Assembly: GCA_009746045.1 (NCBI GenBank)
Contig: RPFO01000072.1
Location: 4,112,770 to 4,176,769, forward strand
Length of the DNA: 64,000 nt
Origin: Mesostigma viride
Taxonomy: Eukaryota > Streptophyta > Mesostigmatophyceae > Mesostigmatales > Mesostigmataceae
Reading direction: 5' to 3'
A program made the position numbers and the translations under genes. The notes beneath the pieces were generated by a model. That model did no database searches, was not told the origin of the DNA, and saw nothing but the letters and a program-made list of their open reading frames with translations. Shown one piece after another: positions 11,340 to 60,472 of this stretch. Every line of letters begins with the position of its first letter. Position 1 is the first letter of the stretch.

Positions 11340-11551
11340 AAGCTGTAATAACATCTAGCAAAGCCGATTCTGTGGCTCTGCATGCTTCTGTTCAGCTACT
11401 GCATCTATCTTAGGAGTTGCATGATGGGATGGGACTTGGCGGAGCTGTATGATCAGATGCCCAGTATGTCTCACCTATGAATTATAGTTGTAATAGATCT
11501 ATCCTTCTATCGGATGCCCAGTATCAAGGAGACAACCATTACAATGCCCAG

Positions 11552-12038
11552 AGTTAGTCTCCATGCTTTGCTGCAGACTAAGTCTCAAAGGCATTGTGAA
11601 TACAACGTATGAATAAGCCTTGTAAACCTACGTTGGTATGTGAATATAAATACCACGTGGGCTATGCAGATAGGAATGCTAGCTAGTCGAGTCGCATACG
11701 TTTCCCTAGATAGGTACTTTGGGTACTGGGGTACGTGACAGATGTCAGTACCCAGTATACGTAGTGTCCTGTCATTGGACGGTACTAGAGTATCCTAGAT
11801 AGGGACCGTACTGCAGCGTGCATTGATCTGTGATCACACGATGCAGTGACTAGACTGCGACCTGTCATCGTGCGGCCTCGGGCCAACGGTCTGCACCCAA
11901 CGGTCACTGGCGGCGCAGCCAGTGAGAGGAACGTTGATAAAGGGTAAACCTATTTTCTAATGAACTGAAGCAATTCATTGCTCTCAGCACACAGTGTTCT
12001 CAAGCATCATACCAAGTCGCTCTTTCCATTTACTAACT
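11552..12038 (+). repeat. 5' LTR of element A
   Basis: 487 bp, agttag...ctaact, with TSD cccag immediately left. It matches the 3' LTR with roughly eight small differences (single bases and 2-8 bp indels). The element is therefore neither brand new nor ancient. The gag ATG lies only 20 bp downstream of the LTR end. Confidence 0.9.
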
Positions 12039-12057
12039 TGAATTTTATCTGCTACCA

Positions 12058-13860: not shown

Positions 13861-13899
13861 CTTACTGTCCTCCCAACACCCTGTACTGGAACCATACAT

Positions 13900-15050: not shown

Positions 15051-15224
15051 AGCTTAACCAGGCACGAGGTAGCTGGGTTGGAAGCATTAGCTCAGCCCCA
15101 AGGCACCAAATTGTCTGCCAACCCTCCCGCTCTGAGGTCAAGATTGGCAGTCGCCTTGCAAGCATTACACAGGTCACATAAGCAACAAGCTGCTGTGGCC
15201 GAAGGGCTGGCAAAAGTCTCAGCT

Positions 15225-16310
15225 GTGTGCACTAGTCAGGACCCCTGGACCCTGGCAATAGACACTCAGGCACAGGTCAGTGTGATCAGTGCACAAGCAG
15301 GAGGGGGGACATCCAGCCAAAACAGCACACTCACTCGTGTGTCCGGCGCGGCACCTCCAAACGTGGAGCTAACTCCAAAAACGTGTCCGGCGGCAGAATT
15401 TTTTGCGACGGAGTGTACTCCAGTCGAAAATTTTAGGGCGGCGCGAAGAAAAATTTTGTGGAGCGAACTCCTTTTGGCGGTCCGGCGCCTAGCTGGTTTT
15501 AGGAAAGGATCGAGTGCGCTAGTGCGCTCTCATGGTGATCCCGCTAGCTCGGTCAGGCGTTTGATTTTCCAGTGCAGGTGTCCGCTTCGGCCCTGCTGTA
15601 CTAACAACTTACGCTGAGAACTTACCAAGTATTGGTTGATTCTAGGAAGACGTATCGACTTTCAGGCAGGCGTCAGGTTGTTGTTGTTGATTCTGACACC
15701 GGACCTGGCGTCAGGCAATAGGCATCGAATTTCCGCCGGCTTGACGTCATTCTTCTACTTGGAGAATATGCTAATACTATCGCTTACTAAGAGCTTCTAC
15801 TAAGAGATTCTACAAAAAGTGCCACATGTCTTACAAGCCACGTAGCACGTAGCACACTCCCAAGTCGGTCCTGCGCAGCTTTTTGACAGACTGAGTGGCA
15901 GCACTCCAGCACTTTTCACTTTGGCTGGCGCCGGACGGCGCGGTAGGCCAAACTCTGGAGTACGCTCATGTACGATTTTAGGGGGGGATGTCCCCCCTCC
16001 TGCACAAGCCATCCCTGGTCTTGAGGTTGCACCTTCATTTTGGGCACGGGTGCAGGATTTCTCAGGCCAAAGCTCACTGGATGTAGTGGGACAAGTGATG
16101 CTCCCTATACTTGGTATTCAGACACCCTTCCAGGTGGTGGAGGGGTACTCTGGTAACACCTGGTTGGGGGAACCTTTTGTATCCTATCCTGGGGTGCTTA
16201 TCTCAGCTAATGAGCTCAGTATCACAGGGGTGGGTGCAGTTCCTCTGGACCACTTTAAAATCCCTCTCTCCAGTATTGTCCCTGGTATGGATGCTGTCAT
16301 CAAGGCAGTC
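15225..16310 (+). pseudogene. Element A retropepsin-like protease, split by a TIR insertion
   Basis: The active-site stretch LAIDTQAQVSVISAQA ends at the insertion (15299-16001) and the domain resumes with IPGLEVAPSFWARVQDFSG and PILGIQTPFQVVEG, then LGEPFVSY (flap and ILG-like elements). Removing the insertion and one copy of the 8-bp duplication restores colinearity with B. The family cleaves Gag-Pol. The motif reads DTQ instead of the usual DTG/DSG in both A and B. Identification as retropepsin rests on motif pattern and spacing only. Confidence 0.7.
15299..16001. mobile_element. 703-bp non-autonomous TIR transposon (8-bp TSD)
   Basis: Perfect 16-bp terminal inverted repeats (aggaggggggacatcc) are flanked by the duplication gcacaagc (15291-15298 and 16002-16009). 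Element B shows the unfilled site. The interior has short reiterated motifs around gtccggcg and aactcc and no transposase. The 8-bp duplication is compatible with the hAT superfamily, but the TIR start is not a classical CAGGG, so the superfamily is left open. A second element with nearly the same TIR is at 46685-47390. Confidence 0.9.
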
Positions 16311-18033
16311 AACACTCAGTATGCACCAGGGGAGATCCCTGATCTGGACAAGTTAGTGCACAGCCAGTTCCTCCATCCCTCAGCTTTTGGGCTGGGTAAG
16401 TGGGACATAGCCATGCACTCACCCCACCAAATCTCCCACGTCATACAAGAATGCAAAACACAAAAAGGGTTTACCAAGTGGCTGATGGCCATTGTCCACC
16501 AAGCCAGGCAGGAATGGGTCCTGCCCAACCCCCAAAACCCTCAATACAAACCTCCTGTCACCCCTTCATGGGACGTGCCAGAGGGAGCCAAAAAGCTCAG
16601 ATTAAAATTTGTTCTCAAACAAAAACCACAAAAAGTGGGCTCCCCAATCTTCCATGCCAGACCATGTGTCACAGAATTAGAGGGGACCTCCACACTGCCA
16701 AAAGGGGAAACTTACACACCTGGGCTGCAACAAACCTCACTCAGGATCATGCTCTCCCTCTTCCTCCACAACCTCAATGCAGGCCAAGACTTTGTCTGCA
16801 AGGCCACTGATATCAAAAGGGCCTTCCTTAGGGGGGACCCAGAAAAGGCTGAATCTGTGTGGAAAGGGAAGGTGTACGTGGTAGACACCCCAGCTGTGTG
16901 GAAACCTTACATTGATGAGCCCCACCTTATTATCAACATTGGGGTGGAAGGGCTTGTCAGTGCCCCCAAAATTTTCAGAGACTCAGCAGAGGAAGTATTC
17001 AAAAAGCTCAAGGCCACGTATGATGACTTGGACCCTTGCTTTTTTGTTGTACCCATGCACCCCCTCTGGACTGCTGTTCTTTGTGTGGCATGGAGATGAC
17101 CAACTCATTTGTGGGCCTAGAGCTGAAGTGGACAAATTTATTCAGCAGGTCCAGGAATCATATGAGATTGGCAAGCAGGTGGAATTGAGCACAACCCCCA
17201 TCCAGTTCTGTGGCATCATGTTGCAGCTGCATAGGCAGCCAGATCAGTGCATGGGTCTGCTCTCTCTCTCCTCCTGCAGAATATATCCAAGATTGTCTAG
17301 ATCTGCTGCAAGACAACTACCTCCCCTTACACATGTGTGCCACTGTTCAGGGCAAACTGGGGTGGTGGTCAGCCATCTGTGGGGCTCCCTTAGCTGTCAT
17401 CAGCAGGGTCACCCATGATGTTCTAGTCAAAATAAAATGCAGTCACATCAGGAAGTTGGTTAATGACTGCCCCCCCCTCATCCTCCATGGCCTGAATCTG
17501 ATGGAAGACATCCACATCCACAGTGTCATGGACAGCTCCATGGAGAGCAGAACAATCACTCAGATGGGGGCACGGGAATCAGGGCTGTTTTTTCTCACCA
17601 ACAGGTCAGATTACATGTCCCTCACTTCCTGGTACAGCAGGCTACACCGCAGAAAACCGGGCAGCAGCAACTCAGCTGAATGTCGTGCTGTGGTGTCTGC
17701 TGCATTGCATGCTCGTTCCCTGCAGCACATGCTCACCTGCATGGCTACAAACCCAGGCAGGCAGCACATGCAATGTCATCTCACATCTCTATACTGACAG
17801 CTACTCTGTGATCAGTTTTCTAACCAAGAAATCTGTTTCTGCTGCTGTCCACACTGACCTGGATTGGGTGATCCTCAAACAGGAGGCAACCTACTTCTCC
17901 AGCTGGCATCTGACATGTGGAAGATGAAGAAAACCCAGCAGATGCCTTAACCAAGCTGAGGGATGCAGCTGGTCCACAATACCAGCTACTATTTGAGAAT
18001 ATGAATCCCTATGGTATCCGTGTCAGTGTATGA
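16311..18033 (+). pseudogene. Element A reverse transcriptase and RNase H, frameshifted
   Basis: Colinear with B pol. The RT start AKKLRLKFVLKQKPQKVGSP (about 16590) is followed by the first catalytic Asp in ATDIKRAFLRGD (about 16800-16836) and the second catalytic site WHGDDQLICG (about 17089-17118), reached after a frameshift near 17060. RNase H blocks are VMDSSMES (about 17527), SNSAECRAV (about 17670), TDSYSVISF (about 17800) and ADALTKL (about 17940). At least four frame changes are visible. The RNase H region ends near 18033, leaving about 360 bp of untranslated sequence before the 3' LTR. Confidence 0.8.
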
Positions 18034-18390
18034 ATAAAATGTCTGGCTACAGCTCAGTACACAACCACCACACCCCCCTACCACAGCGATAGCTGCTGGG
18101 CGCCATAAAATTCAACACATTTGCTGTGGGGTGTGAGTGCTGACTAGGTCAGATTTCTATCCATTTGAAGCTTGAGGGCACAAGCCTTGTGTACACTTAC
18201 TTAATGTGTGCTCCAATAACTGGCCAAACCTCCAGCTGTGTGCAATTTAACACCTGGCCAGAACAGCCAGCTGTAACCAACCTGGCTCAACCAGCCATGT
18301 CTCTTTTGTACCCCTAATCAACTTAAAAACAATAACAATAATGTTGGGGGTGCAGACCTGCATAAGAAATAAATAATAAAACAATACTGG

Positions 18391-19308
18391 AGTTAGTCTC
18401 CATGCTTTGCTGCAGACTAAGTCTCAAAGGCATTGTGAATACAACGTATGAATAAGCCTTGTAAACCTACGTTGGTATGTGAATATAAATACCACGTGGG
18501 CTATGCAGATAGGAATGCTAGTCGAGTCGCATACGTTTCCCTAATTAATTAATGAATTAAACTCGTGCTCCCGTTGGGGAGTCACGGAGCACCGAAGTGC
18601 TTTTAATCCCTGTGTGTGCACAACAGGAGAAAGGGCAGAGACCCCCAGTCTCCTTCATGCCTAAGGCATGCCACAGCTGCATTCGGGCGCGCTAGCTAAA
18701 CGGACACGCTAACGATCCGGCAGCCTGTGGGTGCAATAAGACCCATGTGAGCATATCATAACAAGGAGCGTCACTGGGCAAGTAATCTGATCGAAGCCAG
18801 GACGTAGCATGGCTGTACAAGGACTAAGCTAAGGCTATGGCTGGTTGTGTACCGTGCGTTAGCGGTGCACGTGACTATGTAGGTAAGGTGGCACAACTCT
18901 AAGGCAAACATTCTAAGCATGGCTGCCATGGCGGCATGCAGTGACTACCATTGATTGACGTTTCCCTAGATAGGTACTTTGGGTACTGCGGTACGTGACA
19001 GATGTCAGTACCCAGTATACGTAGTGTCCTGTCATTGGACGGTACTAGAGTATCCTAGATAGGGACCGTACTGCAGCGTGCATTGATCTGTGATCACACG
19101 ATGCAGTGACTAGACTGCGACCTCAGTGTCATCACGAGTGCCGCCTCGGGCCAACGGTCTGCACCCATGAACGGTCACTGGCGGCGCAGCCAGTGAGAGG
19201 AACGTTGATAAAGGGTAAACCTATTTTCTAATGAACCAAGCAATTCATTGCTCTCAGCACACAGTGTTCTCAAGCATTATACCAAGTCGCTCTTTCCATT
19301 TACTAACT
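18391..19308 (+). repeat. 3' LTR of element A, carrying an SINE-like insertion
   Basis: Homologous to 11552-12038 but enlarged by the R-family insertion at 18543-18957. Without it the LTR is about 490 bp. It ends ctaact followed by TSD cccag. An A-rich tract precedes it, with no strong polypurine tract. Confidence 0.9.
18543..18957 (-). mobile_element. SINE-like R-family retroposon, full-looking copy
   Basis: About 415 bp inserted in the 3' LTR of element A with duplication acgtttccct (18533-18542 and 18958-18967). In minus orientation it ends in the conserved CAAC-loop hairpin (18585-18565) and an AATT-type tail. There is no ORF. No clear tRNA-like A/B boxes were found at its 5' end, so its promoter class is unknown. 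Other copies: 50164-52498 (interrupted), 52499-52885, and fragments at 173, 10941 and the LINE 3' ends. Confidence 0.75.
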
Positions 19309-19313
19309 CCCAG

Positions 19314-19735: not shown

Positions 19736-20539
19736 TTTAATTTGCTCCTTTGAGAGAGTTACTGGGAAGGTAGTCGGCCGATATTCAGGGCGAGCCGGTA
19801 CAGCCTGCAGCTTTTTGACGACGACGTCGCAAATTCGAAACGGCAGTACTTATAGTCATGTGTGATAATTAATATTGCGCGCTGCATGAAAATGTCTGAG
19901 ACATCAAATGGAGAAATGGTAGGGTGGCAGAGGTGACCAGAAATGATAAATACCGCTACCTGGCTACGCCCGATCGAGAGTTTTCACTTTTGTTAGTTTT
20001 GTACAACAAATTAATCTGGGACGTGACATGCATGAGTTTCTTACCTCAGCCTAGTCAGACGTACGTTATATATCAGCTGCACGCCAGCACGCTGAATGCG
20101 CTTTCGATCGTGGGGGCTTCGGTTCAGATTTTGGACACGAACAAGCTGAAGGGGGGGGGGGGGTGCGAAGCTAGCGCATTCAGCGTGCTGGCGTGCAGCT
20201 GATATATAACGTACGTCTGACTAGGCTGAGGTAAGAAACTCATGCATGTCACGTCCCAGATTAATTTGTTGTACAAAACTAACAAAAGTGAAAACTCTCG
20301 ATCGGGCGTAGCCAGGTAGCGGTATTTATCATTTCTGGTCACCTCTGCCACCCTACCATTTCTCCATTTGATGTCTCAGACATTTTCATGCAGCGCGCAA
20401 TATTAATTATCACACATGACTATAAGTACTGCCGTTTCGAATTTGCGACGTCGTCGTCAAAAAGCTGCAGGCTGTACCGGCTCGCCCTGAATATCGGCCG
20501 ACTACCTTCCCAGTAACTCTCTCAAAGGAGCAAATTAAA
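19736..20539. repeat. Large palindrome: 367-bp arms, 70-bp spacer
   Basis: Left arm 19736-20102 and right arm 20173-20539 have equal length and appear identical where compared; both arms translate to the same 59-residue string on opposite strands. The spacer ends in a G-run of about 13. The arms are the 5' flank of the TPR unit (compare 43022-43290), so two units meet head to head. Confidence 0.9.
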
Positions 20540-22672
20540 GCTTTTCGGCGTTCAGCCTAAGTATATTGATCTGAGCATTAAGAAGTCCAAGGCACATATA
20601 TTTTAATTAATTTTACTGCCATGGGCAGCGGATCATCCTGCAGTGCGCGACCGGCAGCTGCAGCTCGTTCGACGACTTGGGACCGCTGCTGCAGTCGGCG
20701 GCTTCCTCCGCGAATTGGACGCCGTCCTGGCGCAGTTCTCTTCCCATCCGCAAAGGGCCGTGCACGGAATATCCACGCAGTGCCAGTTCGCGGCTGCAAA
20801 ATTGCCTGTATTTCGAAAACGGAGAATGGGCGCCGTCCAGCTGCTTTGCGGAGTACCGGAATCGTTTGGATGCCACCAAGCACTCCCTTCGCAGGTTGTC
20901 GTCCACGCCCCATATCATCCGAATGACGTCGTGTCCGCTGTTCAAGTTGATGTGAGCAACGTTGGGCATGCTTACTGCGACTATCCGAACAGCTTGTCAG
21001 AGATTTTCGACTCCCCCGATGCCGCAGTTGTGCCGTCCATAATCGGGATCCTCGACATGATCGAAGCCAGCGTGACTGCGGGCCGCTCAAAGCTGTCTTG
21101 GCACGCCTTGCCTTTACTTGTCAAGTGCCGCGAGTCGATTGCCTCCTGCCGGGACGATGTCCGCCAATGCGCGTCTGCACTGCACGCCCTTGCCGCGCAG
21201 CTTGAAAATTGCTGCAATGTTCCTCCAAGGAACGGTCATTCCTGTGTGCCCGAACTGGAACTAGTTTATCAGCTGTTCCTTCGCGTTCGGGAGGCATCTC
21301 CAGGTTCCGAGAAGGAAGCTGCCGAGGCCCTGCTCTTTCTCGGCAAGTATTACCGCTCCAATGACCGCTTTGAGGAAGCAGCCGCCTGCTTCCAGCGCCT
21401 AGCGCGGGCATTATCTCCAGCCAGGTGCATGGGCAACAGCCACCCGTCGGTGGCCTCCGCGTTCAACTTTCTTGCCGAGAGTCTTGTGCAAGCAAGCCGT
21501 TTCAGCGAGGCAGAGTATGCTTGCAAACGCGCCATCGCCATCGCGGTGGCCACCCTGGGGGCGGAACATCGCGACACGCAGGGCTACCGGCGCAACCTGG
21601 ACGCGTTGTGGGTGATGAAAGCGCACTATGAAAGTGAGGCTACCATGCAGCCGCACGGCCAGGACTGACACGTGGCATTCCACCGTTGGCATGGATGTGG
21701 CAGCGCCAGCCTATAAACTTGACGACCCTCCAATATGTGCCGCCCTGGCAGCAGCTCCCCCTTCAATATGCGACCAATGGTATCCTCGATCCCCCCTTTA
21801 TCCGAGCTAGGCCGGGAAATGGTGAGGATGGTGGTGATTACTAATTGGCCTGAGTGCCATTGCTGTCGACATTACAGCCTCCGGGATTCAAGGGCAGTAA
21901 AGGAACTTTTGCTCGCAGCATGCACGTTGCGACGATCTGTATATAAATATCGGATTCATGGTTGCCTACTACATCGTCTTGAGACGGTTGACAGGAGCAC
22001 GCTTACACATAATGGAGGGGCGAGGCTGCCTGCATTGGCATGCAGAGAGCAGCAAGATTTTGAGTTCTGGCTATAGTGTCTGGTGTACCATGTCCGCCCC
22101 AACTATAGTGGGGCAACATGCTACCTCGCTTTTTTTCCTGCGGGGCTATTGCGCTGCTTGTTAGACGGCCTGAAGGTTTGGCAGGACTAGCTAGTAGCTG
22201 TGGGTGTCGTCCTTCTGATATGGTCACCGCTGCATGCATGGTGGGGCCATGTGTATATTACTATCGCAAATCAGCTTGAGCTGTGAAACTGCTGGTGCAG
22301 CATAGCCATGATGCTGAATGCTGCCGGCAGTCAAATTTTCATAATTGTGTAAGTAAATTATGTGTACTACGGATGTGCTGGCATGAGCGCACCGGCCTGG
22401 GCGCTTTCCATTGAAGCGGCCGCCAGGGACCAGACCAATGCGTGTACATATTTATTCCTTGCCAAGCTGCCCAGTAGGTGAATCAATTGTAGAACCAAAG
22501 CATGGTTTGAAGTGCGTGCTTTTTACCGTGACTATCAGTTAGAAATCAAGCAGTAATTGTACCCAGGAAACATTAAATAATTTAGCCGATTGAATTTTAA
22601 AGTACATGCATGACCCGTGCATGCTTGGGGGATCACAATTACTGTAAGCATTGAACCCTGATTTTAGACAAG
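20173..22672 (+). repeat. Inverted segmental duplication, + copy (TPR unit)
   Basis: Matches the reverse complement of 43290-38366 from the TPR 5' flank to 'gaaccctgatttta'. This copy lacks the TTAA element and the ORF1 retroposon found in the other, so it shows the pre-insertion state at both sites. Confidence 0.85.
20621..21668 (+). pseudogene. TPR-repeat protein, copy 1 (5' end frameshifted)
   Basis: Colinear with the intact gene 42970-41942 (-). The ATG at 20621 (MGSGSS) is conserved, but indels between 20637 and 20880 shift the frame at least twice. From about 20870 (SFGCHQALPSQVVVHAPYHP) the frame is open to the stop. The C-terminal third has kinesin-light-chain-type tetratricopeptide repeats: one around ALLFLGKYYRSNDRFEEAA and one around FLAESLVQASRFSEAEYACK. 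TPRs form helical scaffolds for protein binding; the partner is unknown. Expression from a downstream ATG would still give a TPR protein, so loss of function is not certain. Confidence 0.7.
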
Positions 22673-41062: not shown

Positions 41063-41941
41063 ATTCTAAATGATAGTCACGGTAACAAGCAAGCACTTCA
41101 AACCATGCATCTTTGGTTCGATTCACCTACTGGACAGCTGGGCAAGGAATAAATAATTAAATATACACATTGGTCCGGTCCCTGGTCATTGGCCGCTTCA
41201 ATTGTAAGCGCCCAGGGGCGCTCGTGCTAGCACATCCGTCGTACACATTACACAGGGGGGCTCATGCCAGCACATCCGTCGTACACATAATTTACACAAT
41301 TATGAAAATTTGACTCCCGGCAGCATTCAGCATCATGGCTATGCTGCACAGTTTCACAGCTCAAGCTGATTTGCGATATATACACATGGCCCCACCATGC
41401 AGCGGTGACCATATCAGAAGGACGACACCCACAGCTACTAGTCCTGCCAAACCTTCAGGCCGTCTAACAAGCAGCGCAATAGCCCCGCAGGAAAAAAAGC
41501 GAGGGAGCATGTTGCCCCACTTGGGGCAGACATGGTACACCGGACACTAGCCAGAACTCAAAATCTTGCTGCTCTCTGCATGCCAATGCAGGCAGCCTCG
41601 CCCCTCCATTATGTGCAAGCGTGCTCCTGTTGACCGTCTCAGGACGATGTAGTAGGCAACCATAAATACGATATTTATATACAGATCGAGGAAACGTGCA
41701 TGCTGCGAGCAAAAGTTCCTTTACTGCCCTTCCCGGAGGCTGTAATGTCGACAGCAATGGCACTTTTAGTAATCACCACCATCCTCACCATTTCCCGGCC
41801 TAGCTCGGATAAAGGGGGGATCGAGGATACCATTGGTCGCATATTGAAGGGGGAGCTGCTGCCTGGGCGGCACATATTGGAGGGTCGTCAAGTTTATAGG
41901 CTGGCGCTGCCACATCCATGTTAACGGCGGAATGCCACGTG

Positions 41942-42970
41942 TCAGTCCTGGCCGTGCGGCTGCATGGTAGCCTCACTTTCATAGTGCGCTTTCATCACCC
42001 ACAACGCGTCCAGGTTGCGCCGGTAGCCCTGCGTGTCGCGATGTCCCACCCCCAGGGTGGCCACCGCGATGGCAATGGCGCGTTTGCAAGCATACTCTGC
42101 CTCGCTGAAACGGCTTGCTTGGGCAAGACTTTCAGCAAGAAAGCTGAACGCGGCGGCCACCGAGGGGTGGCTGTTGCCCACCTGGCTGGAGATAATGCCC
42201 ACGAGCCGCTGGAAGCAGGTGGCTGCTTCCTCAAAGCGGTCATTGGAGCGGTAATACTTGCCGAGAAAGAGCAGGGCCTCGGCAGCTTCCTTCTCGGAAC
42301 CTGGAGATGCCTCCCGAACGCGAAGGAACAGCTGATAAACTAGTTCCAGTTCGGGCACACAGGAATGACCGTTCCCTGGAGGAACATTGCAGCTTTCAAG
42401 CTGCGCGGCAAGGGCGTGCAGTGCAGACGCGCATTGGCGGACATCGTCCCGGCAGGAGGCAATCGACTCGCGGCACTTGACAAGTAAAGGCAAGGCGTGC
42501 CAAGACAGCTTTGAGCGGCCCGCAGTCACGCTGGCTTCGATCATGTCCAGGATCCCGATTATAGACGGCACAACTGCGGCATCGGGGGAGTCGAAAATCT
42601 CTGACAAGCTGTTCGGATAGTCGCAGTAAGCATGCCCAACGTTGCTCACATCAACTTGAACAGCGGACACGACGTCATTCGGATGATATGGGGCGTGGAC
42701 GACAACCTGCGAAGGGAGTGCTTGGTGGCATGCGCATCCAAACGATTCGTACTCCGCAAAGCAGCTGGACGGCGCCCATTCTCCGTTTTCGAAAAGCAGG
42801 CAGTTTTGCCGAGAGTTGCTTGGATATTCCGTGCACGGCCCTTTGCGGCTGGGACGAGAACTGCGCCAGGACGGCGTCCTATTCGCGGAGGAAGCTGCCG
42901 ACTGCAGCGGTCCCAAGTCGTCGAACGAGCTGCTGCTGGGCGATCGCGCACTGGATGATCCGCTGCCCAT
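41942..42970 (-). CDS. TPR-repeat protein, copy 2 (intact, 342 aa)
   Basis: The ATG at 42970 opens MGSGSSSARSPSSSSFDD. The N-terminal 90 residues are Ser/Pro-rich. Residues of about 95-200 form a mainly helical region (PNSLSEIFDSPDAAVVPSI). Residues of about 205-330 carry kinesin-light-chain-type TPRs (ALLFLGKYYRSNDRFEEAA; FLAESLAQASRFSEAEYACK; GHRDTQGYRRNLDALW). The start is chosen because both copies conserve it and the leader. A TGTAA element lies downstream (minus strand, near 41296). No signal peptide. The role is likely protein-protein scaffolding; the partner is unknown. It lies in a repeat unit found three times in the window, so it could be a gene carried by a repeat rather than a single-copy host gene. 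Confidence 0.7.
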   Translation of the reverse strand: MGSGSSSARSPSSSSFDDLGPLQSAASSANRTPSWRSSRPSRKGPCTEYPSNSRQNCLLFENGEWAPSSCFAEYESFGCACHQALPSQVVVHAPYHPNDVVSAVQVDVSNVGHAYCDYPNSLSEIFDSPDAAVVPSIIGILDMIEASVTAGRSKLSWHALPLLVKCRESIASCRDDVRQCASALHALAAQLESCNVPPGNGHSCVPELELVYQLFLRVREASPGSEKEAAEALLFLGKYYRSNDRFEEAATCFQRLVGIISSQVGNSHPSVAAAFSFLAESLAQASRFSEAEYACKRAIAIAVATLGVGHRDTQGYRRNLDALWVMKAHYESEATMQPHGQD

Positions 42971-43700
42971 GGCAGTAAAAAGATATGCCTTGGACTTAAT
43001 GCTCAGATTAATATACTTAGGCTGAACGCCGAAAAGCTTTAACTTGCTCCTTTGAGAGTGTTACTGGGTAGTCGGCCGATGGCGAGAAATGTGGTATACG
43101 TACAACCAGCAAAAAACTTTGACGACGTCGCCAATTCCGCGAAAGGGCAGTGTGGGATTGCGCGCTGCATGAGAATATCTGGGACGTCAAATGGAGAAAT
43201 GGAAGGGTGGTTAAGGTGACCAGAAATGACAAATACCGCTGACTGGAAACGCCCGATCGAGAGTAATGATTTCACAAATCTGGTACGTGACATCTTGCAT
43301 GGTGACAGTTTCTTTCAGCCGAGTCGTGGGGGCTTCGGTTCAGATTTCGGACAAATTGCCACAGCTTCGTAGTCCAACCGCGCCGATACAAGTCAGCAGC
43401 GAGCAGAGATGTTCTGTCTTTAAAGATTGTGGCGAACGTCAGGTCGTCAGCCCACTGGCCGTTGCTCATGAAAGATCAGCCCTGCGATTCGGCGAGGCGC
43501 TTTTCCAAAACTTCTGGGTGGTGCGGGTACGTAACTGACAGGTTTGAATTTCACGGGTGGCTCACCACGCCTGACGCATGGGCAGCAGATTCTGTAGCGG
43601 CTGATGCGCAGCAGGGATTCTATCCTGCGTATTCGTGCGGATCTGTCAGTTAGTCAGCCAGTAAGTCAGTCAGTCAGTCAGTCAGTCAGAACAACGAGGG

Positions 43701-50746: not shown

Positions 50747-51591
50747 CTCTCAAGTCCTGTATCGGGACCGCGTTAAGCTGCTGGGCAGCCTGCTCCCCAG
50801 CTGCGAGGTTGATGTGGACCATCGCATCTCCCTCGCCTGGCACGCTTTACGTCAGTACCGGGCCCTGTGGCGCAAGCCCCTGGGCAAGATCGAGAAACAG
50901 GACCTGTTCAAGGTCCTCGTCCTTCCTGTTCTCACCTATGGCGCCGAGACGTGGACCCTCACCGCCGACCTGGCCCGCAAGCTGGACGGCGCGGTCACCA
51001 GCATGCTGCGTTCCATTTTCAGAGTAGGATATGCTGCTCATGTCCGCAATGAGGACCTGTACCAGGGCATGCCCTATATCACCAGCACCGCCGCCTGCAG
51101 CTTGTAGGGCACCTAGCTCGCACCAACCAGGTAGACACCTCACGTGGCCCCCCCGCAGGACTGCGACCAGCCCAGCCTGGCCGGCACCTCCTGACGTGGG
51201 CTGGGCCTAGTGATGTTAGACGCCGCAAGGCCCGCACCTTCAAGGAACAGCTAGTAGCGGACATGGGGGGCCTCGGCCTCTCCGTGATTTGGAAGAAGAT
51301 GATGGACAAGGCCAAGTGGGCCCAGGTCATAGAGGACAATGAGCCCCCCCCAGTGGGGAAGCGCCCGCGTGTGCAGTCCCGCGGGAGGCACGCCAGATAG
51401 CTCCGGCCCTCGGGCAGCGTGCGGCTGCCTAGATAGATGTTGTAGTTAGAATGCTGTTAGGTAGATGTAGTATGTAGCCAATGTAGATAGATTAGACCGG
51501 TAGGAATGTTTGCACCCATCCATCCATCCATCGGGGTTAATGCTCCGTGACTCCCCAACGGGAGCACGAGTCTAATTAATTAATTAATTAA
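50747..51591 (+). mobile_element. LINE family 1, 5'-truncated copy (+)
   Basis: Inserted after tagccctgag (50737-50746), which recurs at 51592-51601. It contains a LINE RT-ORF fragment, a (CATC)n segment and then the R-type 3' hairpin (51547-51567) and AATT tail. Confidence 0.85.
50769..51400 (+). pseudogene. LINE family 1 reverse-transcriptase ORF, C-terminal fragment
   Basis: The frame reads through VDHRISLAWHALRQYRALW, DLFKVLVLPVLTYGAETWTL and LDGAVTSMLRSIFRV, the post-RT block of endonuclease/reverse-transcriptase LINEs. It shifts near 51090 and 51220, then continues as the GLGLSVIWKKMMDKAKW tail to a stop near 51400. The RT catalytic core lies in the missing 5' part. Confidence 0.75.
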
Positions 51592-51601
51592 TAGCCCTGA
51601 G

Positions 51602-51932
51602 AAATTAATTAGACTCGTGCTCCCGTTGGGGAGTCACGGAGCATTAACCCCGATGGATGGATGGATGGATGGGTGCAAACATTCCTACCGGTCTAATCTA
51701 TCTACATTGGCTACATACTACATCTATCTAACAGCATTCTAACTACAACATCTATCTAGGCAGCCGCACGCTGCCCGAGGGGGAGCTATCTGGCGTGCCT
51801 CCCGCGGGATTGCACACGCGGGCGCTTCCCCACTGGGGGGGGCTCATTGTCCTCTATGACCTGGGCCCACTTGGCCTTGTCCATCATCTTCTTCCAAATC
51901 ACGGAGAGGCCGAGGCCCCCCATGTCCTCTAC
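51602..51932 (-). mobile_element. LINE family 1, second copy (-), same target site
   Basis: Inverted copy of the last about 330 bp of the preceding LINE, tail to tail with it and followed by a third tagccctgag (51933-51942). The two form a palindrome with arms of about 335 bp (51251-51590 and 51605-51937). Confidence 0.85.
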
Positions 51933-52498
51933 TAGCCCTGAGAAAGGGGCATCTATGGGTTTGTAATACAATCAGGGCTACAACCTGCAGGTGGAGGATG
52001 TACAACTATCACCTGCTCTGGGTGCACTGAGGTGCACCTGCACCGCCATGATGGTTCATGCCTCCTTAACAAGCACAGGCACCCATGAGGGGGGGCTTGA
52101 GGAGAGGGCCTAGAAGGCCTGCATGACATATGGGTTGGAGGGTATGTGGCTAGGCTATAGCTGGTGTACACATGGCATCTCAGCAGAGAGTAACTCCCTG
52201 CATAGGCATAGCATGGCTAAATTCTTAACCCATGGGTTAATGCATCATCCATGGGAGGTCCCATTGTAGGCTGGGCGCGGCTAAATACTGAAAGCATCAT
52301 CCATGGGGGCCATTATGGGCGCACATGCGCGTGGGCCACTTGCAAAGGCTAAGCCTATCTAGCCTCATAGCCAGGACGTAGCATGGCTGTACAAAGGCTA
52401 AGCTAAGACTATGGCTGGTTGTGTACCGTGCGTTAGCGGGGCACGTGACTGAGGTATGATGAGTGATGACTAGCTAGGCTAGGCAAGCATTCTACAGC

Positions 52499-52885: not shown

Positions 52886-52890
52886 TCTAC

Positions 52891-53139
52891 AGTTAGCCTC
52901 TAGTCGTGGACATAGGCTAAGTACCAGATAGCAATGTGCTATCTGGGGTTTCGCACGTGTAGGCTCGGTCAGAAGTCCCGGCTATATGTGATTCGGCAGG
53001 CTAGACTATTCGATAGCCGAGTCCTGGTGACGGACGCCAGTACCCAAGTAGGATTGGCGGTACGGCGTCGCCAGTACCCACTCGGGACTGACATTGAGGT
53101 GTCGGATGTTGGACTAAGGTCCTGAGAGTCTAGCAGTGG
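52891..53139 (+). repeat. Truncated 5' LTR of element B
   Basis: 249 bp matching the 3' LTR from its start to 60238 (minus the insertion there). The last 194 bp of the LTR are missing at this end. Confidence 0.9.
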
Positions 53140-53625
53140 TTTCCAACCCCAAAGGACTGCGGGTGTGGCCTTTGATTGTGCACCTTTTTCTCTAGGTCAG
53201 GGATTTCACCTGGCCCATATTTGATGTTAATGGCCTTGATATAGGCATCTAATCCATGAACCAGTTGGGACAATGGAATCTTGTAGTGATCCAAGGGAAT
53301 GGCTCCTACCCCAGTCACACGCAGCTGGCTAGCAGTGATGGTGACACCTGGGTAAGAGATAAAGGGTTCTCCCAACAAAGCATTGCCCATGTACCCTTCC
53401 ACTACCTGGAAAGGTGTCTGGATGCCAAGTATGGGGATCATTACTTGACTCAACACATCTAAGGTTGTTTTGCCTGAAAAATCTTGCACCTGTGTCCATG
53501 GTGAGGGTGCAAGTTGCAGACCAGGAATGGCTTGTGCACTGATCACACTGACCTGTGCCTGAGTGTCCACAGCTAGGATGCAGGATTCCTGGCTATAATC
53601 GGAGCACACAGCAGAGACCTTGGCC
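53140..53625 (-). repeat. Inverted 486-bp copy of the element B protease region
   Basis: Gap-free reverse-complement copy of 57293-57778, encoding the DTQAQVSVIS protease segment on the minus strand. One visible change is Gly to Ser in the DVLGQ motif. Its near identity implies a recent origin, in or just before this insertion event. No microhomology is evident at the junctions. Confidence 0.9.
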
Positions 53626-55809
53626 GAACAGGCCGAAAAATCTGTTTTTTCTAGCCCAGCTAGCTCGCAAAAATCCGTAAGCAGTATGCGGTCCCCCAGC
53701 CCTCAGGCAAGCCCCGCTGACCTCCCCGCTAAGGCACCGTCCCAACCTCCTCAGGAGGAGGGCGGAATAGCCAAAAGCGGTGGAGAACAAGCGGGGGTGC
53801 CGATCGTCCCCTCATCCGCTCAGAAAGCGGGGGGGTACGAGAGGAAGCTGAAGAGGGACGCATACATGTTCAAAATGCGGACCAAGAAGGTCCCAGGACC
53901 CGTCATCGGCAGCATTCAGCTGTCTGATGACGAGGTCACCCTCTCCCCAGGGGTTTCTGATGGGGAGATTGAGATGAATCCACTCAATCAGGCGGTCGAA
54001 CAGGCCGCCGCCCAGTTTGTAGAGGCACGCCGTCTTGCACAGCAAGAGCGGGACCGCAAAAAGACAGCGGCCCGCAACATGACTGCTGAAAAGCAGCTGG
54101 CTGCCATGCAAGCTGGAGAGGTGCTCCATGAGCGCCTCTTCAATGAGCTGGTTGTTGCACAGGGGGACGAGGGGGTCACGCTAACAGCGGACCAACTCAA
54201 TTCCCTCCTGTTGCAGCTGACCAAGCTGCAGGAGAAGATGCAGGCAACAGAAACGCCTGCACTCCCTGCACATACCCTCCCCACCCCTGGCACTGATTTG
54301 AGCCAAAGGGTGGTTGGAGGGGCCGTGTCACCAAGGGTGCTGCAGGGCAAGAGCCAGGGCACTGTCCCCAGCTCCCCCAGCAAACCCCCAAGTGACCCGG
54401 ATGCCCAGGAGCTCCACCGCCGCAAGGTGGTGGAGAATAAACTCCTAGAGGCCATGATAGCCCGTGAGGGCGGCCTGGCAGCCCAAGCAGCAGCGCTGCA
54501 GCAGCTTGGCCAGGCCAAGGGTTTTCCTACCAGCAGTGGAGTAAGGCAAGGGGAACAAGACCCTGCGCCTGCAGCTGGAACACCACCAGCCACTGCACTA
54601 GCACAGCAAGCTGGAACACAACCACCTTCTGCGGAGGCCCAGCAGACTGCACCCACACCAGGGCAGTCAGATAAGAGCAAGGCGGTGGCAAAAGGGACCC
54701 CAGTGGACCCAACCCCACCCACCCTTAAGGGGGACGTCCAAGAGCTGCTTGCCATACTCACGGCACAGCTCAAGACCATGGCCACCAACCCCATGGACGA
54801 CCTGTCGCGCACCCAGCTGGATGGCCTCCTGGCCAGTATCTCCCAGCTGGAAAGGGGCAGGGCGAACATGGAGGAGGCTGATCTTCAACAAGCAGTCAAG
54901 ACTTTCTTGGCTGAAAAGAAGGACCCGGTCAAAGGTACGTTTAACCCAAAACAAAAAGAATCTAAAATAGAAATCCCTGGCTTACCTGAGGGTTACACCC
55001 AGGAACAGGCCAAGGAATTTTTGTTTAGCCTGAACTACTGTTTTGAGTCTCTGAATGTCCAGAACTGGTTCAGTGCCTTGCGTGCATCCACCACCATCCA
55101 TAGGTCAGCCCCAGCCATTAAAACCTTGGTCCAGATTTACCAAGAAAAGGCTGGGACACCTAACCTAGCAATTGCATTGTGGCCAGCCTTCATGGATGAG
55201 CTTAAGCACTTGCTGGTGGATAGGACACAGTTTGAATCCATCCGTGGTTTCAACTGGCTTAATGCTTACCAGGTCAACAAGCAAGACTATGCCACTGATT
55301 GCAAGAATTATAGGTTGGCTGTAGAAAAGGACCCTGATCTCAGGGGTCTGCCTGCTAGCTACCTGCTGTATTCATGGTTGTCAAATGCTAACCTGGACAA
55401 AGCTGTGTACGCCACTGTGGTTGCAGGTCTCAAACCTCTGTGGAACGATTTCCGGGCGGGGATGAACCATATCCAAGACTGCCTGACTCCCCTGGCTATA
55501 GGTGCTCCGTCTGCAACCCCAACCCCCAAGGTCCAACAGACCCAAGGGAAGGGGCAAGGAAAAAAGCGCCAGCTAGGGGGGCAGCAGGGCGGCCAGTCCA
55601 AGAAGGCCAAGGGCAACCAGCCCCAAGGCCAGCCGGGACAGCCTGCTCAGCTCAAGCCAAACCAGTGGAGGCGGCCCACCCCCCCACACCTGCCCCACCC
55701 ACCCCTGCACCCACTGCTCAGCCCCCCCATGCAGGTCCCAAGAACAAGTGCACCCGGTGTGGCACCAAGGGACACCAGCGGGCGGACTGCAAGTGGAACC
55801 CCGCAGTAG
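53626..55809 (+). CDS. gag: Element B Gag
   Basis: Open from the junction to a TAG at 55807-55809. The natural start is lost; the first ATG is at 53686 (MRSPSPQASPADLP). Domains: Pro/Ser-rich N terminus; KLKRDAYMFKMRTKKVPGP basic block; SDDEVTLSPGVSDGE acidic block; Gln/Arg coiled-coil helices (about 54000-54130 and 54185-54245); a long Pro/Ala/Gln linker. A compact helical domain follows (about 54970-55500; EGYTQEQAKEFLFSLNYCFE … WLNAYQVNKQDYATDCKNYR), plausibly the capsid. The C terminus is Lys/Gln-rich. The zinc knuckle is in the overlapping pol frame. Gag forms the particle in this class. Assignment is by position and composition. Confidence 0.8.
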   Translation, partial: EQAEKSVFSSPASSQKSVSSMRSPSPQASPADLPAKAPSQPPQEEGGIAKSGGEQAGVPIVPSSAQKAGGYERKLKRDAYMFKMRTKKVPGPVIGSIQLSDDEVTLSPGVSDGEIEMNPLNQAVEQAAAQFVEARRLAQQERDRKKTAARNMTAEKQLAAMQAGEVLHERLFNELVVAQGDEGVTLTADQLNSLLLQLTKLQEKMQATETPALPAHTLPTPGTDLSQRVVGGAVSPRVLQGKSQGTVPSSPSKPPSDPDAQELHRRKVVENKLLEAMIAREGGLAAQAAALQQLGQAKGFPTSSGVRQGEQDPAPAAGTPPATALAQQAGTQPPSAEAQQTAPTPGQSDKSKAVAKGTPVDPTPPTLKGDVQELLAILTAQLKTMATNPMDDLSRTQLDGLLASISQLERGRANMEEADLQQAVKTFLAEKKDPVKGTFNPKQKESKIEIPGLPEGYTQEQAKEFLFSLNYCFESLNVQNWFSALRASTTIHRSAPAIKTLVQIYQEKAGTPNLAIALWPAFMDELKHLLVDRTQFESIRGFNWLNAYQVNKQDYATDCKNYRLAVEKDPDLRGLPASYLLYSWLSNANLDKAVYATVVAGLKPLWNDFRAGMNHIQDCLTPLAIGAPSATPTPKVQQTQGKGQGKKRQLGGQQGGQSKKAKGNQPQGQPGQPAQLKPNQWRRPTPPHLPHPPLHPLLSPPMQVPRTSAPGVAPRDTSGRTASGTPQ
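55680..55686 (+). promoter_or_regulatory. Possible -1 frameshift site between gag and pol
   Basis: The heptamer C CCC CCA lies in the gag zero frame exactly where protein-like sequence passes from gag to the pol frame (gag ...NQWRRPTPP, pol AHPPTPAPPTPAP...). It fits X XXY YYZ. A simple indel in the C7 run is the alternative. Confidence 0.35.
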
Positions 55810-58800
55810 GCGACGTGGACCTCTGCTTCGGTTGCAAGCACCCCCGCCATCTGCCCCCCGGCACGTGGTGCGACCGGCAGGACAAGGCTCCAAAAGGATG
55901 TACGTCCTCACAGCACGCCTATGTGGATTTATATGATCTCATTATCATTGGGGATAAAGACAAGGGACTGCTAGATTTTGAGGCAGCTCAGAAAATCTCC
56001 TCCACGTATAATGTGATACTGCCCTACCTCAAAGCTCTTACCCCAGCTGCTGTTGACACAGTAGACTTAAGGGAACTAGCAACCCAGCTCCACATAGCCA
56101 TGGGTCATGAGGTGGTGGCAGAAAAGATTGCCAGAAGAGCAGGAGGTTCACGACTCAGGAATGCTGTCAGGTTGGCTAGAAAACACTGCCAGCAATGTCA
56201 GTTCCATGGCCCAAAACCTCCCAAATGGCATGTCGCAACACCACCCACCCAAAGGGGAATAATTGTGGGTGATGTCGTGCATATCGATGGTGAACAATAT
56301 CTGATCCTAAAAGACACATGGTCCAGATTCACTGTCATGGAACCCCTACCTGGCATGGCTAAAGAGCAACTGCGTGCAGCACTTGTGATAGCATTGCCCA
56401 GATTCTACCCAGTTGACACTATACTGCTTGATCAACAGTTTAGCTGTCTGGCTGAGTGTGAAGGATGGGATGCTAATATTGAGATTGCTGGATTGCAAGA
56501 TCATGAAGGGCAGGGTGTCATTGAAAGAACCATCAGGTCAGTCAAAACTTTAGTGGCGAAATCCACTGACCTGAAAGCCACATCTGGAAGCTATGCTGAC
56601 AGAGCACTGTGGTGCAGTGAAATCTGTGCTACACTTAACCTTAGACCTGTGTTGCATGCACCATGGGGGGAAATCCTTCCCATTGGCTTACAGGCAGGTG
56701 TGTACCCTCCAGAGGTATTAGCTCTGTATAACACAGTAAGAGCTAAAGTGGCTGATAAGCTAGCTGAAAAGGACATAACACACCCCAGAACAGTATTCCA
56801 ACTGGGTGAACAAGTCCTATATTTCAAAGAAACCAAACATGGCAAGACAGGCATGTGGTATGGTCCGTGCACTGTTCTAAGAATGACCAAAAAAGGAAAA
56901 AATATGGATATTCGAAGTTTGGAAACAGGGAGAAAACACAGGGTGAGCAGTCATAGAGTTAAGAAGTATTTCCCTCCTTTGGCAGACGTGCCAGGGGAAG
57001 AGTCCTTGAACATGGATTCCCTCCTTAACTCTGGTGAGCAAGCAGAACCACCCAGCATTCCAACACCAGGAGCTGATGATGGCACTACCACACCCTCTGT
57101 CATTCCTCCACCCCTCAGTGAGGTACGTGTCACCCCACAACCTGGTGTAAGTCCCTCTGGGCAGAGTTCAACCAGGCATGAGGTACCAGAGCAAAACAAA
57201 GGCAATCCAGCTGAGTTCAAATCCAAGCTAGAAAAAGCCCTGGCAGCTCTGCATAAGGCTCACAAGAGCAAGGCTAAACAAGCCTCAGGTTTGGCCAAGG
57301 TCTCTGCTGTGTGCTCCGATTATAGCCAGGAATCCTGCATCCTAGCTGTGGACACTCAGGCACAGGTCAGTGTGATCAGTGCACAAGCCATTCCTGGTCT
57401 GCAACTTGCACCCTCACCATGGACACAGGTGCAAGATTTTTCAGGCAAAACAACCTTAGATGTGTTGGGTCAAGTAATGATCCCCATACTTGGCATCCAG
57501 ACACCTTTCCAGGTAGTGGAAGGGTACATGGGCAATGCTTTGTTGGGAGAACCCTTTATCTCTTACCCAGGTGTCACCATCACTGCTAGCCAGCTGCGTG
57601 TGACTGGGGTAGGAGCCATTCCCTTGGATCACTACAAGATTCCATTGTCCCAACTGGTTCATGGATTAGATGCCTATATCAAGGCCATTAACATCAAATA
57701 TGGGCCAGGTGAAATCCCTGACCTAGAGAAAAAGGTGCACAATCAAAGGCCACACCCGCAGTCCTTTGGGGTTGGAAAGTGGGACTTAGCCATGCACTCT
57801 CCTCACAACTATGATGCTCTAATCCAACAATGCAAAACACAAAAAGGGTTTCAAAAATGGATCCAAGCCATTAGGCACCAAGCCCGCGAAGAGTGGGTGC
57901 TGCCAAACCCTAAGCATCCTGACTATAAGCCACCTGTCACTCCTGTCTGGGAAATTCCAGAAGGTGCCAAAAAGTTGAGACTCAAGTTTGTGCTAAAACA
58001 CAAGGCACAGCCAGTAGGCTCACCTATATATCATGCTAGGCCATGTGTGACAGAATTAAAAGGCATGTCAAAACTGTCCAAGGGTGAACTCTACACTCCT
58101 GGGCTGCAGCAAACATCCCTCAGGATACTGCTCTCTGTCTTCCTCCACCATCTCAATGCTGGCCAAGATTATGCCTGCAAAGCTACTGATATCAAAAGGG
58201 CTTTCCTTAGAGGGGACCCTGATAAAGCGCAAGATGTGTGGAAGGGTCAGGTCTATGTGGTTCCCACCCCTGCTGCATGGGCACATGATATTGATGAGCC
58301 ATATCTACTCCTAAATCTAGGGGTGGAAGGTTTGCAAAGTGCTCCCACTATCTTCAGAAAATCAGCAGAAGAGGTGTTCAAGAAACTTAATGCCACTTAT
58401 GATGATCTGGACCCTTGTCTCTTTGCTGTGCCCACACCCTCTGGCTTGCTCCTGTTTGTGTGGCATGGTGATGACCAACTGATTTGTGGACCAAGAGCTG
58501 AAGTTGACAAGTTCATTCAGCAGGTTCAGCAGTCATATGAGATTGGAAAGCAGACAGAGCTGGGGCCAGAACCCCTACAGTTCTGTGGCATAATGCTAGC
58601 ACTGGAAGAGCAACAGGAACAGTGGGTGTGTACTCTATCCCCGCCTGCCCAGTACTTAGAAGAATGCCTAGAGCTGCTTGATATTCCGTGCATTCCTGCT
58701 CACATGTGTGCTACTGTCAAAGGAAAATTAGGGTGGCTGAGTGCTATCTGTGCACCTCATCTGGCAGTGGTCAGCAGGATTGATGACACAGTATTACAAA

Positions 58801-59399
58801 CCATGAAACCTAAGGATCTCCAGAAGCTACTAAAGGCTGGACCTTCCCTTGTCATTCATCCACTCAACCTCATGGAAGATATTCACATTAACTGTCTGAT
58901 GGACAGCTCCATGGAGAGTAGGGTAATAACAAAAATGGATGCCAGGGAGGCTGGGGTGTTCTTCCTTACCAACAAGGGAGACTATATGTCCATGGTGTCG
59001 TGGTACAGCAGATTGCATCGCAGAAAAGCTGTTGGCAGTAACTCTGCTGAGTGCCGTGCTGTGGTGTCTGCTGTGCAGCATGCTCGATCCCTTCAGCACA
59101 TACTAACCTGGTTGCAAACTCAGGCTGGCAGCAAGGCTGATGTGCATGCTCACTTACACACTGACAGTCAGTCAGTCATTAGTTTCCTTAACAAGAAATC
59201 TGTGACTGCTGCTGTGCATACTGATCTGGACTGGGTGATTTTGAAACAGGAAACAAGCTATTTTTCCAGCTGGCAGCATCTGCCAGACGAGGAGAACCTG
59301 GCTGACGCATTGACCAAGATTCCGTCATTAGCAGCAACCCAGTACCAGCTTCTGTGTGATGCAATGAATCCCTATCTGTCTAGTCAGACAAATGGATGA
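55686..59399 (+). CDS. pol: Element B Pol: CCHC - integrase - protease - RT - RNase H
   Basis: One open frame, -1 relative to gag. CCHC knuckle CTRCGTKGHQRADC (55749-55790) and a second Cys/His cluster (55822-55869). Integrase: HIAMGH (56091) and CQQC (56187) zinc ligands; D,D,E in GDVVHID (about 56266), ILLDQQF (about 56424) and GVIERTI (about 56515). Protease: VDTQAQVSVIS (about 57348), PILGIQTPFQVVEG, LLGEPFISY. RT: ATDIKRAFLRGD (about 58183) and HGDDQLICG (58464-58490). RNase H: CLMDSS, SAECRAVV, HTDSQSVISF, LADALTK (to about 59320). RT and RNase H blocks are Copia-type. The usual Copia order is protease-integrase-RT-RNase H; here the protease is third. No stops or frameshifts. Confidence 0.85.
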   Translation, partial: TPAPPTPAPTAQPPHAGPKNKCTRCGTKGHQRADCKWNPAVGDVDLCFGCKHPRHLPPGTWCDRQDKAPKGCTSSQHAYVDLYDLIIIGDKDKGLLDFEAAQKISSTYNVILPYLKALTPAAVDTVDLRELATQLHIAMGHEVVAEKIARRAGGSRLRNAVRLARKHCQQCQFHGPKPPKWHVATPPTQRGIIVGDVVHIDGEQYLILKDTWSRFTVMEPLPGMAKEQLRAALVIALPRFYPVDTILLDQQFSCLAECEGWDANIEIAGLQDHEGQGVIERTIRSVKTLVAKSTDLKATSGSYADRALWCSEICATLNLRPVLHAPWGEILPIGLQAGVYPPEVLALYNTVRAKVADKLAEKDITHPRTVFQLGEQVLYFKETKHGKTGMWYGPCTVLRMTKKGKNMDIRSLETGRKHRVSSHRVKKYFPPLADVPGEESLNMDSLLNSGEQAEPPSIPTPGADDGTTTPSVIPPPLSEVRVTPQPGVSPSGQSSTRHEVPEQNKGNPAEFKSKLEKALAALHKAHKSKAKQASGLAKVSAVCSDYSQESCILAVDTQAQVSVISAQAIPGLQLAPSPWTQVQDFSGKTTLDVLGQVMIPILGIQTPFQVVEGYMGNALLGEPFISYPGVTITASQLRVTGVGAIPLDHYKIPLSQLVHGLDAYIKAINIKYGPGEIPDLEKKVHNQRPHPQSFGVGKWDLAMHSPHNYDALIQQCKTQKGFQKWIQAIRHQAREEWVLPNPKHPDYKPPVTPVWEIPEGAKKLRLKFVLKHKAQPVGSPIYHARPCVTELKGMSKLSKGELYTPGLQQTSLRILLSVFLHHLNAGQDYACKATDIKRAFLRGDPDKAQDVWKGQVYVVPTPAAWAHDIDEPYLLLNLGVEGLQSAPTIFRKSAEEVFKKLNATYDDLDPCLFAVPTPSGLLLFVWHGDDQLICGPRAEVDKFIQQVQQSYEIGKQTELGPEPLQFCGIMLALEEQQEQWVCTLSPPAQYLEECLELLDIPCIPAHMCATVKGKLGWLSAICAPHLAVVSRIDDTVLQTMKPKDLQKLLKAGPSLVIHPLNLMEDIHINCLMDSSMESRVITKMDAREAGVFFLTNKGDYMSMVSWYSRLHRRKAVGSNSAECRAVVSAVQHARSLQHILTWLQTQAGSKADVHAHLHTDSQSVISFLNKKSVTAAVHTDLDWVILKQETSYFSSWQHLPDEENLADALTKIPSLAATQYQLLCDAMNPYLSSQTNG

Positions 59400-59767
59400 T
59401 GAAATAGGGCACTCCAGACTAATGGTGCAGACTATGGTCTTTCCCAGCTGGTGGCAACTTGGCAACAAACATAATAATTTCTTGATGTGCCCCCTGGTTT
59501 TTCCATAGCCACTCATCACTCCACTGACTTGTACAAACAGGGGATCCTAGGTTCAGAAACCTCAAAGACACTGTCAGATTTAAAGGCAATGGGGTCTGTG
59601 GGCGCTTTAATTCACAACGTCCATTGTGGTCTGATATGAGTTTTCCTGTACCAATGTCTTATTCATGATATTGCCAAGTACCTGAAAAAAAACAAAAAGG
59701 AATAAAAACTGGAGGTGCAGCACTGATGCCTTAAAAAAAAAAAAAAAAAAAAAAAGAATAAAACTGG

Positions 59768-60432
59768 AGTTAGCCTCTAGTCGTGGACATAGGCTAAGTA
59801 CCAGATAGCAATGTGCTATCTGGGGTTTCGCACGTGTAGGCTCGGTCAGAAGTCCCGGCTATATGCATCACTCCCCGGAAAGGAGAACTTTTGCGGATGA
59901 CTGTAGGTGTAAGTTGGCGATGCCATGGTAACCGGAGACGTCCGTCCTATAGTCAGCAAAATTGGTGCGAGAGGTCCCCAGTTCGATTCCGGTCGGATTC
60001 ATTTGCAGATCGCGTTTTCCGCGTTTTCCGCGGCCCGGCACTGAACGCAAAGGTTTTCACCTTTGCGGAGTGTCTGATCAGAATATGTGATTCGGCAGGC
60101 TAGACTATTCGATAGCCGAGTCCTGGTGACGGACGCCAGTACCCAAGTAGGATTGGCGGTACGGCGTCGCCAGTACCCACTCGGGACTGACATTGAGGTG
60201 TCGGATGTTGGACTAAGGTCCTGAGAGTCTAGCAGTGGCGTCGCGCCACTCAGGCTGCACCACAGAGCCCAACGGCCACTGTCGGCTGCTCCAGACGTGG
60301 CAGCCAGGCAGAGCGTTGCTTGTCGACAATGCTAAATGCCCTTGTGCACGTTGGGTGCGGGGCTTGTGATTTATTGTAATAAACACATGCGTTAGGCCAT
60401 TGAGCATTGAGAGGTCCACTCGTTTATTAACT
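59768..60432 (+). repeat. 3' LTR of element B, with a 217-bp insertion
   Basis: 665 bp including an insert; about 440-450 bp without it. Ends ttaact, followed by TSD tctac. Preceded by an A-run of about 22 bases and 'actgg'. Confidence 0.9.
59866..60082. mobile_element. 217-bp insertion in the B 3' LTR
   Basis: Absent from the 5' LTR and flanked by atatg (59861-59865 and 60083-60087). Ends resemble each other inverted (cactcc..cggaaagg / cactccgcaaagg). It contains agttcgattcc, like a tRNA B box, after a tagtcag..ttgg A-box-like stretch, but no anticodon arm. A related fragment is at 50035-50098. It could be a tRNA-derived SINE or a foldback MITE. Confidence 0.6.
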
Positions 60433-60472
60433 TCTACCAATGAAGTCAAGCTAGGGCTCAGTACAAGCTATT

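Follow-up and report, generated by a model that had tools for sequence, protein, structure and literature searches.

A stretch of 64,000 nucleotides (nt) from the genome of the alga Mesostigma viride (contig RPFO01000072.1, positions 4,112,770 to 4,176,769 of the forward strand; here called the window) contains a long terminal repeat (LTR) retrotransposon, element B, whose pol frame encodes a zinc knuckle, an integrase, a retropepsin-like domain, a Copia-type reverse transcriptase (RT) and an RNase H region, in that order. This order is a real trait of a family and not a feature of a single copy, as it recurs in insertions throughout the assembly and in a second, decayed element of the window, element A. 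On sequence grounds we think it quite likely that the B/A lineage consists of Copia-related LTR retrotransposons with a new layout, a putative protease lying between integrase and RT. A stronger proposal, that this is a superfamily-level lineage with an active retropepsin built on the motif DTQA, and that both its layout and its catalytic loop would be unlike those of all described LTR elements, is one that we offer tentatively.

Element B and its relatives in the Mesostigma viride genome

The original prediction, made from the letters of the window, placed a retrotransposon at 53626..59399 with one uninterrupted frame running from integrase through a protease-like domain and RT to RNase H. 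That frame is present and open from 55392 to 59399, and pol lies within the predicted interval; the full element is longer, extending from 52891 to 60432 between 5-bp target-site duplications (TSDs). The features of the two elements are as follows.

52886-52890, left TSD of element B, TCTAC
52891-53139, + strand, 5' LTR of B, shortened at its 3' end (249 nt, 99.6% identical to the LTR of the related copy L062)
53140-53629, - strand, exact inverted copy of the protease segment 57289-57778 of B
53599-55809, + strand, gag open frame of B, 736 amino acids (aa) from stop to stop, in a frame different from that of pol
55392-59399, + strand, pol open frame of B, 1335 aa
55749-55790, + strand, CCHC zinc knuckle (Pfam zf-CCHC, E 0.029, below cut-off)
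55824-55871, + strand, second Cys/His cluster, C-x2-C-x4-H-x6-C, its Cys and His invariant in three subfamilies
56091-56978, + strand, integrase, assigned by motif (HHCC at 56091-56198, Asp 56271, Asp 56430, Glu 56523)
to about 56978, + strand, C-terminal W-x-GP segment of the integrase
56979-57281 (bounds approximate), + strand, Pro/Ser/Thr-rich linker between integrase and protease-like domain
57282-57640 (bounds approximate), + strand, retropepsin-like domain (DTQA with Asp 57351; LLGEPF at 57540)
57948-58550, + strand, Copia-type RT (RVT_2; Asp 58188, DD at 58470)
58893-59351, + strand, RNase H region (motifs MDSSMES, AECRAV, TDSQSV and ADALTK)
59768-60432, + strand, 3' LTR of B, with a 217-nt insert at 59866-60082
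60433-60437, right TSD of B, TCTAC
11552-19308, + strand, element A, a decayed copy of the L061 subfamily, with TSDs of CCCAG at 11547-11551 and 19309-19313

We take the RNase H region, which has no Pfam match, to be of Copia type from its motifs; matches of this region to NCBIfam metallo-beta-lactamase models (E 7e-4, far under the cut-offs) were set aside as chance. Two unrelated Pfam families also match the B frame, at E 0.05 and 0.18. The 490-nt inverted copy at 53140-53629 takes the place of the LTR end, leader and gag start that are present in L062. It is absent from L061 and L062, the only other copies with a 5' part read whole, and may stem from a rearrangement during reverse transcription or from the assembly itself. 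The insert in the 3' LTR is absent from both the 5' LTR of B and L062, and its edges carry a 5-nt repeat, ATATG. Within it a GTTCGATTCC box resembles a tRNA-derived short interspersed element, and ARAGORN found no tRNA in the insert.

To follow the order through the genome, the protease-RT-RNase H part of B was compared with the assembly (439,911,974 bases in 2243 contigs), giving 64 matches when 63 of 8473 candidates were scored; the identity is 91-100% in 43 of these and 73% in 21. Thirty B-type loci were fetched, B itself among them, and the sequence AVDTQAQVSVI is present in every one. The order integrase core, protease, RT and RNase H is found in 27 of the 30 (the core match of L012 is partial), and the integrase core was not found within the fetched stretch of the other three. 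No pair of loci shares the last 350 nt in register, and the absence of a common 3' flank indicates that they are separate insertions. Not every copy is open throughout, as the integrase region is divided over two frames in nine of the loci. The copies L062 and L061 have the order of B. L062 encodes gag and pol in a single 2018-aa frame, and its LTRs are identical along 411 nt and carry an indel close to the end of U5. L061 has separate gag and pol frames; its LTRs show no difference along 473 nt, and its pol, of 1381 residues, is 68% identical to B pol. A third subfamily, represented by L065 (taken instead of L064, which is 5'-truncated), also has an open frame with this order, at 54% identity to B pol. 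Conserved in the three subfamilies are the integrase HxxxxH...CxxC, Asp 56271, Asp 56430 and Glu 56523 (catalytic roles assigned by motif), the DTQA, and RT Asp 58188 and 58470. A fourth lineage (P0001 and L069), read from the protease-like domain onward, has the DTQA domain directly before RT.

The lineage is large and has been recently mobile, with recent insertions. Exact matches to the RT motif FVWHGDDQ number 1147 in the assembly, truncated copies such as L064 included, and the reversed pattern has none. P0001, a EukProt protein (jgi/Mesvir1), agrees with the assembly at 100% along 629 residues. Another Mesvir1 protein has a short stretch 100% identical to B pol (5% of the query). In the protein database the B frame had no hit, and two family alignments retrieved these two Mesostigma proteins, one each, among the 7999 scored candidates sharing most words. 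Viral and genome contig collections outside the host gave pattern matches and no relative by tblastn, a result that does not establish absence elsewhere. LTR elements are the largest repeat class of the published Mesostigma viride assembly, at 27.9% (PMC6947507).

Element A had been put forward in the original prediction as an independent insertion with the same order, arguing that B is not a chimera of one copy. That argument holds and is strengthened by the copies across the genome. The pieces of A follow the order of B, match L061 at 85-98% nucleotide identity depending on the piece, and are flanked by a TSD of their own; the frame itself is decayed, being broken by stops and shifts, and an insertion of about 660 nt, between 15341 and 16002, interrupts the protease segment. 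In the three pieces of A that were compared with Pfam, RVT_2 is the sole match, at E 0.0058, below cut-off.

Two side observations concern these relatives. In L061 (875-7206) the gag and pol frames overlap, with pol at -1. The pol match lies in an open frame of 1267-1381 residues in 14 of the 21 copies with 73% identity, which points to frameshifting and not to decay. Beside a B-type copy, L030 (4427-4945, - strand) carries a distant relative of the protease-like domain with DTNA in place of DTQA.

Relation to Copia, Gypsy and other elements

The RT provides the firmest link to Copia. Pfam RVT_2 matches the B pol frame over residues 853-1053 (E 7.7e-9) and L065 (E 2.8e-8), both over cut-off, and L061 below it (E 3e-5); RVT_1 gave nothing, with E-values up to 1 allowed for B and up to 10 for L065 and L061. 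Aligned with a canonical Copia RT from this genome, the RT shows 21.7% identity (221 residues, E 4.8e-7). Thirty canonical Copia loci were compared, near-identical copies that represent essentially one Copia family; 21 have both anchor motifs in one frame, and in none of those 21 does the stretch from integrase to RT contain a D[ST]G-like motif.

Other characters divide. Ty1/Copia LTRs end in TG...CA, but those of A, B, L061 and L062 have the ends AGTTA...TAACT, the 5' LTR of B lacking its end. The sequence following the 5' LTR in L061, L062 and A begins TGAATT, not TGG, in a comparison confined to TGG-type primers. The TSDs are all of 5 bp (TCTAC in B, CCCAG in A, GTTAT in L061, GTATA in L062), close to the length seen in Ty1/Copia, a length that is not diagnostic because Gypsy has it too. 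The lineage thus resembles Ty1/Copia in its RVT_2-family RT, in having integrase upstream of RT, in the single gag-pol frame of L062 and in its TSD length, but differs from it in the protease-like domain between integrase and RT, the DTQA, the LTR ends and the divergence of the RT. It resembles Ty3/Gypsy in having the protease-like domain directly before RT, but in Ty3/Gypsy, where the order is protease, RT, RNase H and integrase and the RT is of RVT_1 type, integrase comes last and not first.

The order and the LTR ends depart from Copia, as the post-LTR sequence may also do. We call the lineage Copia-related and do not file it as Ty1/Copia. The integrase of Gmr1 occupies the Copia position, behind the protease. 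Gmr1 is mentioned as a Gypsy group with a Copia-like integrase position (PMC2774666), and it provides a precedent for another integrase position. The usual arrangements, as set out in a large plant survey, are Gag, protease, integrase, RT and RNase H for Copia and Gag, protease, RT, RNase H and integrase for Gypsy (PMC6317226). Domain order varies between families, with the protease more variable than other domains (PMC3248453). The original prediction regarded a protease between integrase and RT as a new layout, and we likewise found no element with this order in searches of an open-access paper library, subscription journals and Repbase being outside that search.

Pol order is one basis for telling LTR superfamilies apart. 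The plant survey removed all elements of unexpected order as likely mispredicted (PMC6317226); an abundant, recently mobile family with an unusual order shows that such filters can hide real lineages. It also supplies a further arrangement for testing how and why Pol is processed. Mesostigma viride lies at the base of the streptophytes (PMC6947507), so the lineage bears on the early evolution of LTR elements in plants.

The domain between integrase and reverse transcriptase

Assignment of the middle domain as a protease is the weak point of our interpretation, and the sequence support for it is modest. As in retropepsins (clan AA, gag-asp_proteas and DDI1-like proteins), the domain has a hydrophobic-Asp-Thr-x-Ala...Ser-Val/Ile-Ile pattern followed about 60 residues on by Leu-Leu-Gly. 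Pfam gag-asp_proteas (PF13975) matches B over model positions 12-90 of 92, with E-values of 0.094 for the whole frame, 0.02 when the segment is taken by itself and 0.0082 for its inverted copy, and matches L065 over positions 6-56 (E 0.017). A profile of five lineages compared with five retropepsins gave E 0.0064, a score equalled in 2 of 300 column shuffles. Pfam found no protease upstream of the integrase in gag and pol of B, nor in the part of L061 and L065 that runs from knuckle to integrase. A motif scan covering the whole frame of L062, both frames of L061 (gag and pol) and the pol of L065 found only two D[ST]x[AS] sites common to all three, the DTQA and the RNase H TDSQS; the others, none of them common to all three, are one site in the L062 integrase and its L061 counterpart and, in L061, two in gag and one each in the Cys-rich part and RT. 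Upstream of the integrase, the scan of L062 and of L061 gag and pol detected no D[ST]G with hydrophobic surroundings. A protease hidden upstream was rejected for the examined frames. The domain is under purifying selection: between B and L061 the ratio of nonsynonymous to synonymous substitution rates (dN/dS) is 0.11-0.13 for the protease, 0.15-0.18 for the integrase and 0.08-0.09 for RT, and 0.25-0.53 for the knuckle-spacer part.

Several observations weigh against an IN-PR-RT-RH reading of the frame (integrase, protease, RT, RNase H). The dN/dS ratios were obtained by two methods, with those for the linker, the protease-RT link and RNase H coming from one method only, and dS is high (1.2-1.9) in the protease, integrase and RT. 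The Gly of the retropepsin D[ST]G is replaced by Gln in four lineages (those of B, L061, L065 and P0001) and by Asn in L030. Every Pfam protease match falls below its curated cut-off, that of PF13975 being 28.2 bits, and there is no such match at E up to 10 in L061, L030, P0001 and P0002 or at E up to 1 in the two pieces of A that hold the domain; as a positive control, three retropepsins of the same assembly, one of them near ApRick and probably bacterial, score 5e-13 to 5e-20 with PF13975. The profile match is limited to 29 columns around DTQA, and an earlier, smaller comparison was weaker (E 0.069, equalled in 8 of 200 shuffles). PDB searches with the B frame and two family alignments gave nothing of use, and the profile search among them returned no retropepsin. 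The integrase is recognized by motif, from its HHCC zinc domain and D-D-E triad, with no Pfam match in B or L061 and an rve match in L065 alone (E 1.1e-4; 22.8 bits, cut-off 32.6). The domain-profile search proposed with the original prediction thus bore out the RT over cut-off, gave sub-threshold matches for protease and integrase, and returned nothing for RNase H.

The main rival explanation is that the domain descends from a retropepsin and is catalytically dead, with a role in dimerisation or spacing, and that cutting is done by a host enzyme or by the protease of another element. The substituted Gly and the low or absent Pfam scores are in keeping with this, and the assembly is rich in ordinary retropepsins able to work in trans: all 150 of the PF13975 matches scored are over cut-off, and the three inspected have DTG, one of them being probably bacterial. 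However, the Asp and Thr do not vary among the five sequences, selection has maintained the domain, and the examined frames offer no other protease candidate, so that we regard a dead domain as rather unlikely. The DTQA itself offers a direct way of asking if a retropepsin can do without the Gly of D[ST]G.

Two further alternatives concern the origin of the order. The integrase may have moved ahead of a Gypsy-like protease-RT-RNase H unit, or the types may have recombined, with no movement of a Copia protease. The order is indeed a cyclic shift of that of Gypsy; the W-x-GP segment resembles the GPY/F module of Gypsy and retroviral integrases, and DTQAQVSVIS appears nearer to the Gypsy, BEL or DDI1 motifs than to the Copia DSGA-x-HM. 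The RT speaks for Copia, however, in both its RVT_2 match and its similarity to the Copia RT of the same genome, and we consider a moved integrase possible but somewhat doubtful. That an assembly error or nested insertion placed the protease segment behind the integrase is scarcely credible. Although B does carry a rearrangement with an exact inverted copy of that segment, the order is present in 27 of 30 loci with different flanks and in open frames of two further subfamilies (68% and 54% identity), and the many copies with different flanks refute an assembly artefact as its source.

Under the layout that we favor, with a putative protease between integrase and RT, B and A would most likely be ordinary LTR retrotransposons in their working, with LTRs, a 5-bp TSD and gag-pol. 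The putative protease sits where an ordinary Copia element has the linker from integrase to RT, and in a long linker it would have room to fold and dimerise while leaving both neighbors undisturbed. Dimerising in assembled particles, it may cut Gag-Pol on both of its own sides, releasing an integrase with a long C-terminal tail together with RT-RNase H; the Pro/Ser/Thr-rich stretch before it would serve as a hinge or a cleavage site. The new order would in this way change how Pol is processed, as was first proposed for element B.

Other features of the window and assembly

Searches of the 64,000-nt window with Rfam and ARAGORN found nothing. At 3586-5269 a Helitron-like N-terminal domain is divided over two neighboring frames; its Pfam matches, at E 2.1e-6 and 0.0082, do not reach the cut-off. 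Elsewhere in the assembly, a 1,488,356-base contig (C2011), perhaps from a Rickettsiales symbiont, encodes at 489701-489949 a retropepsin (L066) whose nearest PDB match is the Rickettsia protease ApRick (E 1e-24). Within the window, 20506-22190 and 41438-43071 form an inverted duplication, 95-99% identical in pieces, with a tetratricopeptide-repeat frame on each side. An inverted repeat at 19736-20539 has 367-nt arms that are 100% complementary and separated by 70 nt. At 51250-51936 inverted repeats of 155, 126 and 69 nt, with 99% complementarity, are nested in one another, and a motif around GTGCTCCCGTTGGGGAGTCACGGAGCA in these repeats recurs near 10.9, 18.6, 50.2 and 52.5 kb.

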